Shown: piece by piece, positions 22,616 to 25,001 of the stretch
Position numbering within the stretch: the first letter of the stretch is position 1
Layout: every line of letters starts with the position of its first letter
NCBI GenBank assembly: GCA_015494805.1
Contig: WGAN01000131.1
Span: 1-53,511 of the forward strand
Source: Caldifarciminota bacterium
GTDB lineage: Bacteria > Hydrothermota > Hydrothermia > LBFQ01
Direction: 5' to 3'
Length of the DNA: 53,511 nucleotides
Position numbers and translations under genes: made by a program
Notes under the pieces: generated by a model
What the model was told of the DNA's origin: nothing
Seen by the model: the letters and a program-made list of their open reading frames with translations, nothing else
The model's database searches: none

Positions 22616-22637
22616 AGGATGCTCGTTTCTTCCCCCT

Positions 22638-22643
22638 TATAAT
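22638..22643 (+). promoter_or_regulatory. -10 box of the candidate structured RNA
   Basis: A perfect TATAAT pointing toward the GC-rich RNA and CRISPR array. Expected transcription start is about 22649-22651. Confidence 0.6.
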
Positions 22644-22649
22644 GCCGGG

Positions 22650-22860
22650 TGAAGGAGGTATTAGAGGCCGAGCAAGTAGCGTAGCGAAGGGAGGCCGTAA
22701 GCCCGTCCCCGGGAGAGAGACAGAGGAGGCAGGGGAGGGGCAGGGAGCCGCCGGGGAGGTGTGCCTACAGCGGGTGGCCGCCTAAGAGCGGCCTATGGGA
22801 GGGACCGGCCCCAGTCTCGGCTGGGGGCTGTGAGGCACGCGGCGGCAGAGTTTTGGTGTA
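22650..22860 (+). ncRNA. Candidate structured RNA upstream of the CRISPR array (family unknown)
   Basis: About 210 bases, very GC- and purine-rich, without a credible long ORF and behind its own TATAAT. Helices found by eye: GGC/GCC (22693-22695 with 22701-22703); a closing helix GCCGCC/GGCGGC (22747-22752 with 22841-22846) plus GTGCC/GGCAC (22761-22765 with 22834-22838); inside it two hairpins, GGCCGC/GCGGCC (22776-22781 with 22788-22793) and CCCCAG/CTGGGG (22809-22814 with 22821-22826). That makes a three-way junction, followed by TTTT. It lacks the conserved sequences of RNase P, SRP RNA and tmRNA. An 11-codon GTG ORF (22649-22684) also starts 5 bases after the TATAAT. Ends are approximate. 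Confidence 0.5.
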
Positions 22861-22979
22861 TCAACTCGCGGGACGGGCTTATAAATTCACAAATTTTTAG
22901 AGATGCAAGACCGGAGGTTCAGCAAAAATCGGGGGAAATGGCGGGGTATAAGTTTGAAAATTATTTATCCGAAGCAACG
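22861..22979 (+). promoter_or_regulatory. CRISPR leader
   Basis: AT-richer segment directly before the first repeat, on the side with perfect repeats. It contains TATAAA (22880-22885) and TATAAG (22947-22952) as possible -10 boxes for pre-crRNA. No anti-repeat was seen. Confidence 0.6.
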
Positions 22980-25001
22980 GTCCGAAATCTACCTTGTGGA
23001 ATTTGAACATACCTATTTCTGGTCAAACTTTAAAATTAACGTAGATATAGTCCGAAATCTACCTTGTGGAATTTGAACATACCTCCACTTATTTTACCTC
23101 CCCTACGGCGTGCGGGTCCGAAATCTACCTTGTGGAATTTGAACAGGTTGTGGCGGTAGAGTGGAATCCTGTTATTGCCGCCTGTCCGAAATCTACCTTG
23201 TGGAATTTGAACATACATACTCAATATAGGTTCCCGTGGAACCGGAGGGGTCCGAAATCTACCTTGTGGAATTTGAACCTGGTTCGCTGAGTACTACAGG
23301 GAGGACATACGCCGCGTCCGAAATCTACCTTGTGGAATTTGAACGGAGTATCTACCGGTATAGAGGCTTGGGTGCTCTTGGGTCCGAAATCTACCTTGTG
23401 GAATTTGAACATGCTGTTCTCCCACACGATAGCGGTGCCGGGGATCGGGTCCGAAATCTACCTTGTGGAATTTGAACAAATTCTGTTGCAGAATTATAGA
23501 ATCCTCCATATACCGCGTCCGAAATCTACCTTGTGGAATTTGAACTCGGGATGCGGCCACCCATCCCCCCCTCTCCTCGTCCGTCCGAAATCTACCTTGT
23601 GGAATTTGAACTCAAGTGGTATCTGGGCCTGATCACCCGGCTAAAGGTCCGAAATCTACCTTGTGGAATTTGAACTCAAGTGGTATCTGGGCCTGATCAC
23701 CCGGCTAAAGGTCCGAAATCTACCTTGTGGAATTTGAACCACATCTGGACGAATACACGAAGCGCTTCATTCTTCTGTCCGAAATCTACCTTGTGGAATT
23801 TGAACTGTGGCGGATCGGTGGCACGATTGCCACCCCGCCAATGGTCCGAAATCTACCTTGTGGAATTTGAACCCCCCTCGTCGGATACCTTATAGATGCG
23901 GCCATACTCCCAGTCCGAAATCTACCTTGTGGAATTTGAACAGCTTGAACCCCTCTGATATAGTCCACCTTGATGTACCGTCCGAAATCTACCTTGTGGA
24001 ATTTGAACAATCTCTACCGCCATCGTATTTACACCCTCCAGTATCCGTCCGAAATCTACCTTGTGGAATTTGAACCTTTGATTGGGGGAAGGGTAGATGG
24101 TATGCTCCCGGTCCGAAATCTACCTTGTGGAATTTGAACTCAGGACGTTTTGAAGGGCTGTTTCGTCTATTTCGGCGTCCGAAATCTACCTTGTGGAATT
24201 TGAACCCAGATAAGTCAAGAGGTTACCGATTCCCGTATAACCTGTCCGAAATCTACCTTGTGGAATTTGAACGATATTCGGCTATCAAGGGCCATACCTC
24301 CGGGCGGGCGGTCCGAAATCTACCTTGTGGAATTTGAACGTATCTTGAGCGTCCTGTCAGACCAGCCGGACCTATTGTCCGAAATCTACCTTGTGGAATT
24401 TGAACCGCAGGAATTACGACTTAGGCTTCAAGTTGATTTACTGTCCGAAATCTACCTTGTGGAATTTGAACGGGGGCTTAATGCCCCCTGGGTTTTGTTT
24501 ACGCCTATAGGTCCGAAATCTACCTTGTGGAATTTGAACTTGGTAATTACTTCACTTTAGGCATTGTCTTTGGATTGTCCGAAATCTACCTTGTGGAATT
24601 TGAACATTGTGGGAGCATATCATATGTTAAATATGGCAAAAGGTCCGAAATCTACCTTGTGGAATTTGAACGCAACGTAGAAATGTGCGGTGCGGGTGGT
24701 CATCACGCGGTCCGAAATCTACCTTGTGGAATTTGAACAAGTACTACGAAATTACTAAAAAGACTGAATATCGCCGTCCGAAATCTACCTTGTGGAATTT
24801 GAACCGGACCACCGGGGCGTGGTATAGACAGAGGGGGCGGAGGTCCGAAATCTACCTTGTGGAATTTGAACCATCTTTGAAAAGGCTGGTCTCCCTGAAC
24901 CCCGCCTCGTCCGAAATCTACCTTGTGGAATTTGAACCAAACTTTATACTACGTACCGGTTTTGTGATAAAGGTCCGAAATCTACCTTGTGGAATTTGAA
25001 C
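22980..25001 (+). CRISPR. CRISPR array: 31 perfect 29-bp repeats, 30 spacers
   Basis: The repeat starts GTCCGAAATC, has TACCTTGTGG in the middle and ends AATTTGAAC. All 31 copies read identical by eye. Spacers are about 34-41 bases. The 3' end ATTTGAAC resembles the 8-base crRNA 5' handle of type I-B/III systems, and the repeat resembles the 29-base repeats of thermophiles such as Aquifex. With degenerate repeats at the right end, the leader is on the left and transcription is rightward. No cas gene lies within the window. Short ORFs reading SEIYLVEFE or FKFHKVDFG are translations of the repeat, not genes. Confidence 0.98.
23612..23710 (+). repeat. Duplicated spacer-repeat unit inside the CRISPR array
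   Basis: The 35-base spacers at 23612-23646 and 23676-23710 are identical, both starting TCAAGTGGTATC and ending CCGGCTAAAG. A whole spacer-repeat unit was therefore duplicated (or the same spacer was acquired twice). Confidence 0.95.

Follow-up and report, generated by a model that had tools for sequence, protein, structure and literature searches.

Transcription of the distal spacers of CRISPR arrays is understood in a few Gammaproteobacteria, where it proceeds via boxA. In this group, rrn antitermination protects CRISPR arrays, as stated in the part of PMC12691694 that cites Stringer et al. 2020, and in Legionella, where the effect was tested with a synthetic array, a boxA in the CRISPR leader raised the precursor about 10-fold (PMC7862264). 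The rRNA operons of E. coli carry nut-like boxB-boxA-boxC elements just after the rrn P2 promoter and again before the 23S gene, boxC being part of the leader-trailer helix (PMC10250234). The locus analysed here belongs to an unrelated lineage of hydrothermal type, which appears to have linked the leaders of its CRISPR arrays with those of its rRNA through a different motif, and to have added a folded RNA; it offers a testable case for rRNA-type antitermination of CRISPR arrays having evolved more than once.

By the window we mean the whole stretch of 53,511 nucleotides that was analysed. A first-pass annotation had placed in it a single structured RNA gene, at 22638-22860, between a secreted-protein gene and a CRISPR leader. 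This idea was right in kind but wrong in context: the segment occurs in many copies and forms the upstream portion of a type I-B CRISPR array leader, which extends over positions 22638-22979 of the + strand (about 340 nt). The features of the leader and its array are the following:

22630..22643, + strand: promoter motif TTCnCCCTTATAAT, with TATAAT at 22638-22643; the homology of all copies starts here.
22657..22697, + strand: rRNA-leader-like motif GTATNARAGGCCGAGYARGTAGSGWRGSGAAGGGAG (profile R3, 44.4 bits).
22699..22864, + strand: structured RNA domain, helix P1 plus the three-way junction P2-P5 (covariance models R1 and R2, pair counts).
22701-22710 with 22732-22741, + strand: helix P1, with one G.G and a purine-rich loop (22711-22731).
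22747-22752 with 22841-22846, + strand: helix P2, closing the junction (GCCGCC/GGCGGC).
22759-22771 with 22827-22840, + strand: helix P3, with a bulged G at 22832.
22776-22781 with 22788-22793, + strand: hairpin P4, with a 6-nt loop and GC/GU variation only.
22809-22814 with 22821-22826, + strand: hairpin P5, with a variable 6-nt loop and a nearly invariant stem.
22850..22865, + strand: single-stranded block GTTTTGGTGTATCAAC, conserved in all copies.
22866..22979, + strand: AT-richer, array-proximal part of the leader, conserved among copies up to the first repeat.
22980..25001, + strand: CRISPR array of the type I-B family, with 31 exact repeats GTCCGAAATCTACCTTGTGGAATTTGAAC followed by degenerate copies.

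Like the boxA-bearing CRISPR leaders (PMC12691694, PMC7862264), this one lies between a promoter and a long array, whose transcript of about 2 kb is untranslated, and shares a motif with the organism's own rRNA leaders; NusB and Rho are also present (NusB in 7 of 7 genomes and Rho in 6 of 7, the MAG of the window, 86% complete, giving no Rho match). It differs from them in carrying a further conserved folded domain of about 150 nt, and in its motif, a sequence rich in purines that coincides in part with the leader strand of the rRNA leader-trailer helices. No canonical boxA (TGCTCTTTNA-like) was found in the CRISPR leader at up to 2 mismatches, and since this defining element was looked for and not found, the leader was not assigned to the boxA family. 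The E. coli rrn leader (PMC10250234) has its elements at the same two places as the motif, directly behind the promoter and ahead of 23S, and its boxC takes part in a leader-trailer helix as the motif does; the differences are that no boxA was recognised here and that CRISPR leaders, too, contain the boxC-like strand, there without a trailer partner. Antitermination leaders that use an RNA hairpin, among them EAR, put and those with the LoaP dfn hairpin (PMC12691694), likewise have a folded RNA towards the 5' end of a long transcript, but here it has no Rfam match and its P5 loop is variable instead of a fixed UNCG. Finally, tracrRNA and CreTA-type RNAs are likewise non-coding RNAs at CRISPR loci, whereas the present element lies inside a type I-B leader and has neither anti-repeat nor pseudo-repeat. 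What is new here is an rRNA-leader-like unstructured motif between promoter and fold, within a new RNA family that has a defined position and a covariance model.

A DNA search of 100 relatives yielded at least 7 copies in the genome of the window and positives in 4 of the 5 other members of its genus, with none in other genera; a decayed copy in the fifth member, G003, was added later by covariance model. The count stands at 7 copies in the window's own genome and about 20 across six genomes of one WOR-3 genus, the named records being WOR-3 MAGs plus one labelled Thermotogota. No homologues were found with covariance model R2 in 141 further WOR-3 genomes, nor in the viral contigs, phages and plasmids that were searched. 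Once oriented and aligned, the copies showed a common start at TTCnCCCTTATAAT and unbroken homology down to the first CRISPR repeat, while their upstream flanks were unrelated except at orthologous sites. The upstream neighbours vary from copy to copy, and the secreted-protein gene is incidental. Twelve leaders were complete up to the array and the remaining ones were cut by contig ends, where leaders are frequently located; the array leader of the sister genus (G006) also breaks off at contig ends. In every copy uncut by a contig end, repeats came next, and the element was present in every array of the genus with a visible leader. Being multi-copy and always at arrays, it is not the housekeeping RNA of divergent form that had been considered, even though a short motif is shared with 16S and 23S leaders. 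The repeat was the same throughout, with small variations, except in L011 (G000:C185), where the same leader precedes an array with a different repeat, GTGGAATTTAAACGTCTCGTGCAATATGACG, so that leader and repeat family have recombined there. The GTTTTGGTGTATCAAC block showed one change each in L005 and L098, and one to three differing places in L007, L004 and the L003 group.

The type of the system was derived from the genes cas3-cas8b-cas11b-cas7b-cas5b-cas6b, encoded on the same contig as a G002 copy. In addition, cas4-cas1-cas2 directly adjoins copies in G002 and G005; no cas1 match was obtained in the window's own 86% complete MAG.

The perfect TATAAT reported in the first reading was confirmed, as was the GC-rich stretch with helices behind it. 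This hexamer was invariant in the 17 copies with a visible 5' end (17/17), and C occupied positions -6, -4, -3 and -2 in 14 of 14 independent loci, with no conserved -35 among the copies. Allowing at most one mismatch, TTCnCCCTTATAAT was found at 53 sites of the window's own genome, where the reversed control gave 2, and at 29-146 sites in each of six relatives, including positions upstream of 16S and 23S genes. The -10 context of the leader is a genome-wide promoter motif. The invariance of TATAAT, the over-representation of the motif and its presence before 16S and 23S make a transcript start just downstream of TATAAT likely. The promoter-like sequence TTCNCCCTTATAAT, in which a run of pyrimidines precedes the -10, was strongly over-represented in G000 and its relatives, and more so in the sister genus than in the own genus. 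In L009 and L016, an inverted repeat ATACCG...CGGTAT overlaps the promoter/start region (about 22641-22662 of the window) and is possibly an operator.

Folding of the single sequence by minimum free energy reproduced the same helices, although with an energy no better than expected from base composition (z -0.73; 49 of 200 shuffles as good). Both parts of the closing helix that had been proposed are present, the second, 22759-22765 with 22834-22840, being longer than described, since it continues to 22771/22827 past the bulged G; the two 6-bp hairpins with 6-nt loops were found as annotated (22776-22793 and 22809-22826), and a fifth helix, P1, had been missed. Ten close copies were used to build covariance model R1, which then recovered two copies outside its training set, the divergent one of G001 (55 bits) and the decayed one of G003 (32 bits). 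In P1 and P3 of G001 the sequences differ, yet 20 of 20 pairs are kept and 11 have both partners replaced, the P3 pairs being counted in the register given by the model alignment. When substitutions were drawn at random for the altered positions, none of 200,000 trials left all 20 pairs intact. P1 accounts for 10 of these pairs, 3 of them with both partners replaced, and P3 retains its one bulge on the 3' strand. In alignment A4, which was fitted to the structure and from whose main pair count the forced alignment of the decayed L030 was excluded, 98.5% of cells were paired, against 42-49% for slid structures, and 12 pairs showed changes on both sides, against 1.4 ± 1.0 in shuffles, none of 500 reaching 12. 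The proposal of a CRISPR-associated structured RNA with a three-way junction is supported, and the fold shows compensatory changes in homologues; most of these changes come from the single divergent lineage G001, covariation among the close copies alone being weak.

The helices did not contribute equally. In P3, 9 of 13 pairs were changed on both sides in A4, whereas P2 was invariant in the 12 of 12 A4 copies with letters there, an invariance that is no evidence of covariation. P4 is missing from the G001 copy, which makes it optional and the three-way junction not universal, and P5 is present in every copy, those decayed in G003 among them. One-sided departures from pairing were always G-U on the + strand (8 observations at 7 pair positions) and never A-C, which indicates an RNA of the + strand, read towards the array. 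Judged by its compensatory changes, the domain is a conserved folded RNA.

Known identities were sought in several ways. Rfam gave no matches for the whole window at gathering thresholds, only a chance 11-bit match outside the element at E 10 (E 8), and none for the element in L005, L007, L030 and L091, the families covered including RNase P, SRP, tmRNA, 6S RNA and riboswitches; no known housekeeping family was recognised, and no tRNA or tmRNA was found. A coding sequence was rejected because no single reading frame fits the copies: indels of 1 nt separate close ones, and the G001 copy lacks about 19 nt. The G-runs at 22734-22756 fit a G-quadruplex pattern in the window's copy; in L006, L015 and L005 these runs are interrupted, although P1 and P3 are retained. 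Neither an intrinsic terminator between fold and array nor a pseudo-repeat in the leader was detected, and the best local score for a tracrRNA-like anti-repeat, complementary to the CRISPR repeat, was 15, against 12.9 ± 1.9 for shuffles (167 of 1000 as good).

The motif between promoter and fold, of about 36 nt, is largely unpaired in the predicted fold, with a mean unpaired probability of 0.69-0.76 against 0.39-0.48 in the structured domain. In the G002 16S leader, the second rRNA promoter is directly followed by GTATGAAAGGCCGAGTAGGTAGGGAGGGAAGGGAG, a sequence that matches 22658-22693 of the window. Its score was 35 with L001 and 45 with L003, whereas shuffled sequences gave 20 ± 2.7 (0 of 500 as good), and the comparison of the G001 16S leader with the G001 CRISPR leader was matched by none of 1000 shuffles. 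Direct similarity between 23S and CRISPR leaders was modest (1-29 of 1000 shuffles as good). A strict motif pattern applied to eight genomes hit 16 places, namely 13 CRISPR and 3 rRNA leaders, with 0 for the reversed control. Profile R3, a sequence-only profile made from CRISPR and two 16S leaders without any 23S or G001 16S sequences, placed the 16S leaders (that of G001 included), the 23S leaders of four genomes and the complementary 23S trailers next behind the CRISPR copies; two 16S-leader remnants were also among the next best matches, and only two matches at E ≤0.06 had no rRNA or CRISPR location, G000:C144 (near a coding region) and G003:C108 (unchecked). Outside CRISPR leaders the motif is almost confined to the rRNA operons of this genus, where it stands on the 5' side of the leader-trailer stems of 16S and 23S. 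In 16S, leader and trailer form a 20-bp helix (duplex -50 kcal/mol) whose 5' strand is this motif; in 23S the motif lies immediately next to the mature 5' end. The 16S leader-trailer stem of the sister genus has a different sequence, and the window's own MAG (86% complete) gave no 16S match. Two rRNA promoter-leader segments followed by 16S-like fragments, L169 (G005:C63:15580) and L170 (G000:C166:2362), appear to be what is left of rRNA operons, with intact operons nearby.

On account of its position and of the motif shared with 16S and 23S, we read the element as a cis-acting, rrn-leader-like leader of the pre-crRNA that makes RNA polymerase processive through the array, an interpretation to which we give just under an even chance. 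Transcription would start just after TATAAT, and the upstream two thirds of 22638-22979 would encode the 5' part of the pre-crRNA. The nascent RNA would first expose the unpaired rRNA-type motif and then fold into P1 and the P2-P5 junction before continuing into the repeats; the leader would recruit Nus-type factors to RNA polymerase, and the untranslated array could then be transcribed to its end despite Rho. The folded domain may act as a second binding site, for a protein, or as a stable 5' cap that stabilises the precursor, a role that we infer from its conservation and place alone. Sequence comparison therefore suggests that an rRNA-type trick may be used to transcribe long CRISPR arrays to the end. 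The decayed G003 locus with one remaining repeat, from which TATAAT and P1 have gone, also speaks for this reading. This antitermination reading is weakened by the lack of a canonical boxA in the leader, by the different stem of the sister genus and the modest 23S-CRISPR similarity, and by the fact that P1-P5, for which no counterpart was found in rRNA leaders, shows covariation mostly in one lineage. That the system is a lineage-specific, boxA-free antitermination signal common to 16S, 23S and CRISPR, joined to a dedicated and new structured RNA domain that acts on the transcription of CRISPR arrays, is possible, and we propose it only tentatively.

The role of the motif in rRNA raises the question of processing. 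Its conservation there, as the 5' strand of the leader-trailer helix, may serve processing, and the leader could accordingly act in cis on processing or stability, with the motif as an RNase III-type (leader-strand) handle and the fold either protecting the 5' end of the precursor or giving rise, once freed by Cas6, to a stable leader RNA. The GC-rich, stable fold and the location of the 23S motif next to the mature end fit this proposal, as does the pairing of the G001 CRISPR motif with the G002 16S trailer (-41 kcal/mol). However, no partner strand for the CRISPR motif was found in the window within 3 mismatches, which leaves it without a double-stranded substrate in cis, and the motif is predicted mostly unpaired; we consider this explanation unlikely, while giving it some weight. 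A separate trans-acting small RNA inside the leader, regulating cas genes or other targets, would have its own promoter, a fold and many copies per genome, all of which are observed here. It is nevertheless rather improbable, as there is no terminator-like site between fold and array, the array is always next, type I-B needs no accessory RNA, and the leader has no repeat-like or anti-repeat stretch that would make it tracrRNA-like or CreA-like.

Two further explanations dispense with an RNA function. The inverted repeats could be cruciforms or protein sites of a DNA element for spacer acquisition, served by a Cas1-Cas2-Cas4 common to all arrays; such shared use keeps leaders alike between arrays in general, and cas2-cas4-cas1 lies directly beside two copies. 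Against it, a cruciform would have no preference for G-U on the + strand over A-C, the conserved fold is 130-280 bp away from the integration site, the -10 at the outer end is invariant, and a motif is held in common with rRNA leaders; we regard it as improbable. The alternative of chance inverted repeats in GC-rich leader DNA, homogenised by gene conversion, draws on the non-significant energy of the single sequence and on the near identity of the close copies with their weak covariation; it is disfavoured already by the fully paired G001 copy with its 11 double changes, to which the poor pairing of slid structures adds, and appears very improbable.

Some minor observations concern the arrays themselves. 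In the window, two successive repeat-spacer units at 23583-23710 are identical, with the spacer TCAAGTGGTATCTGGGCCTGATCACCCGGCTAAAG present twice. Genome G003 contains two decayed loci, L030 (G003:C48) and L098 (G003:C147), consisting of a leader and a single repeat with no array, and L030 has lost both TATAAT and P1. In addition, the repeat of L030 has its TTTGAAC end about 15 nt upstream of a TATAAT that belongs to a downstream tRNA gene, at the place of a -35.
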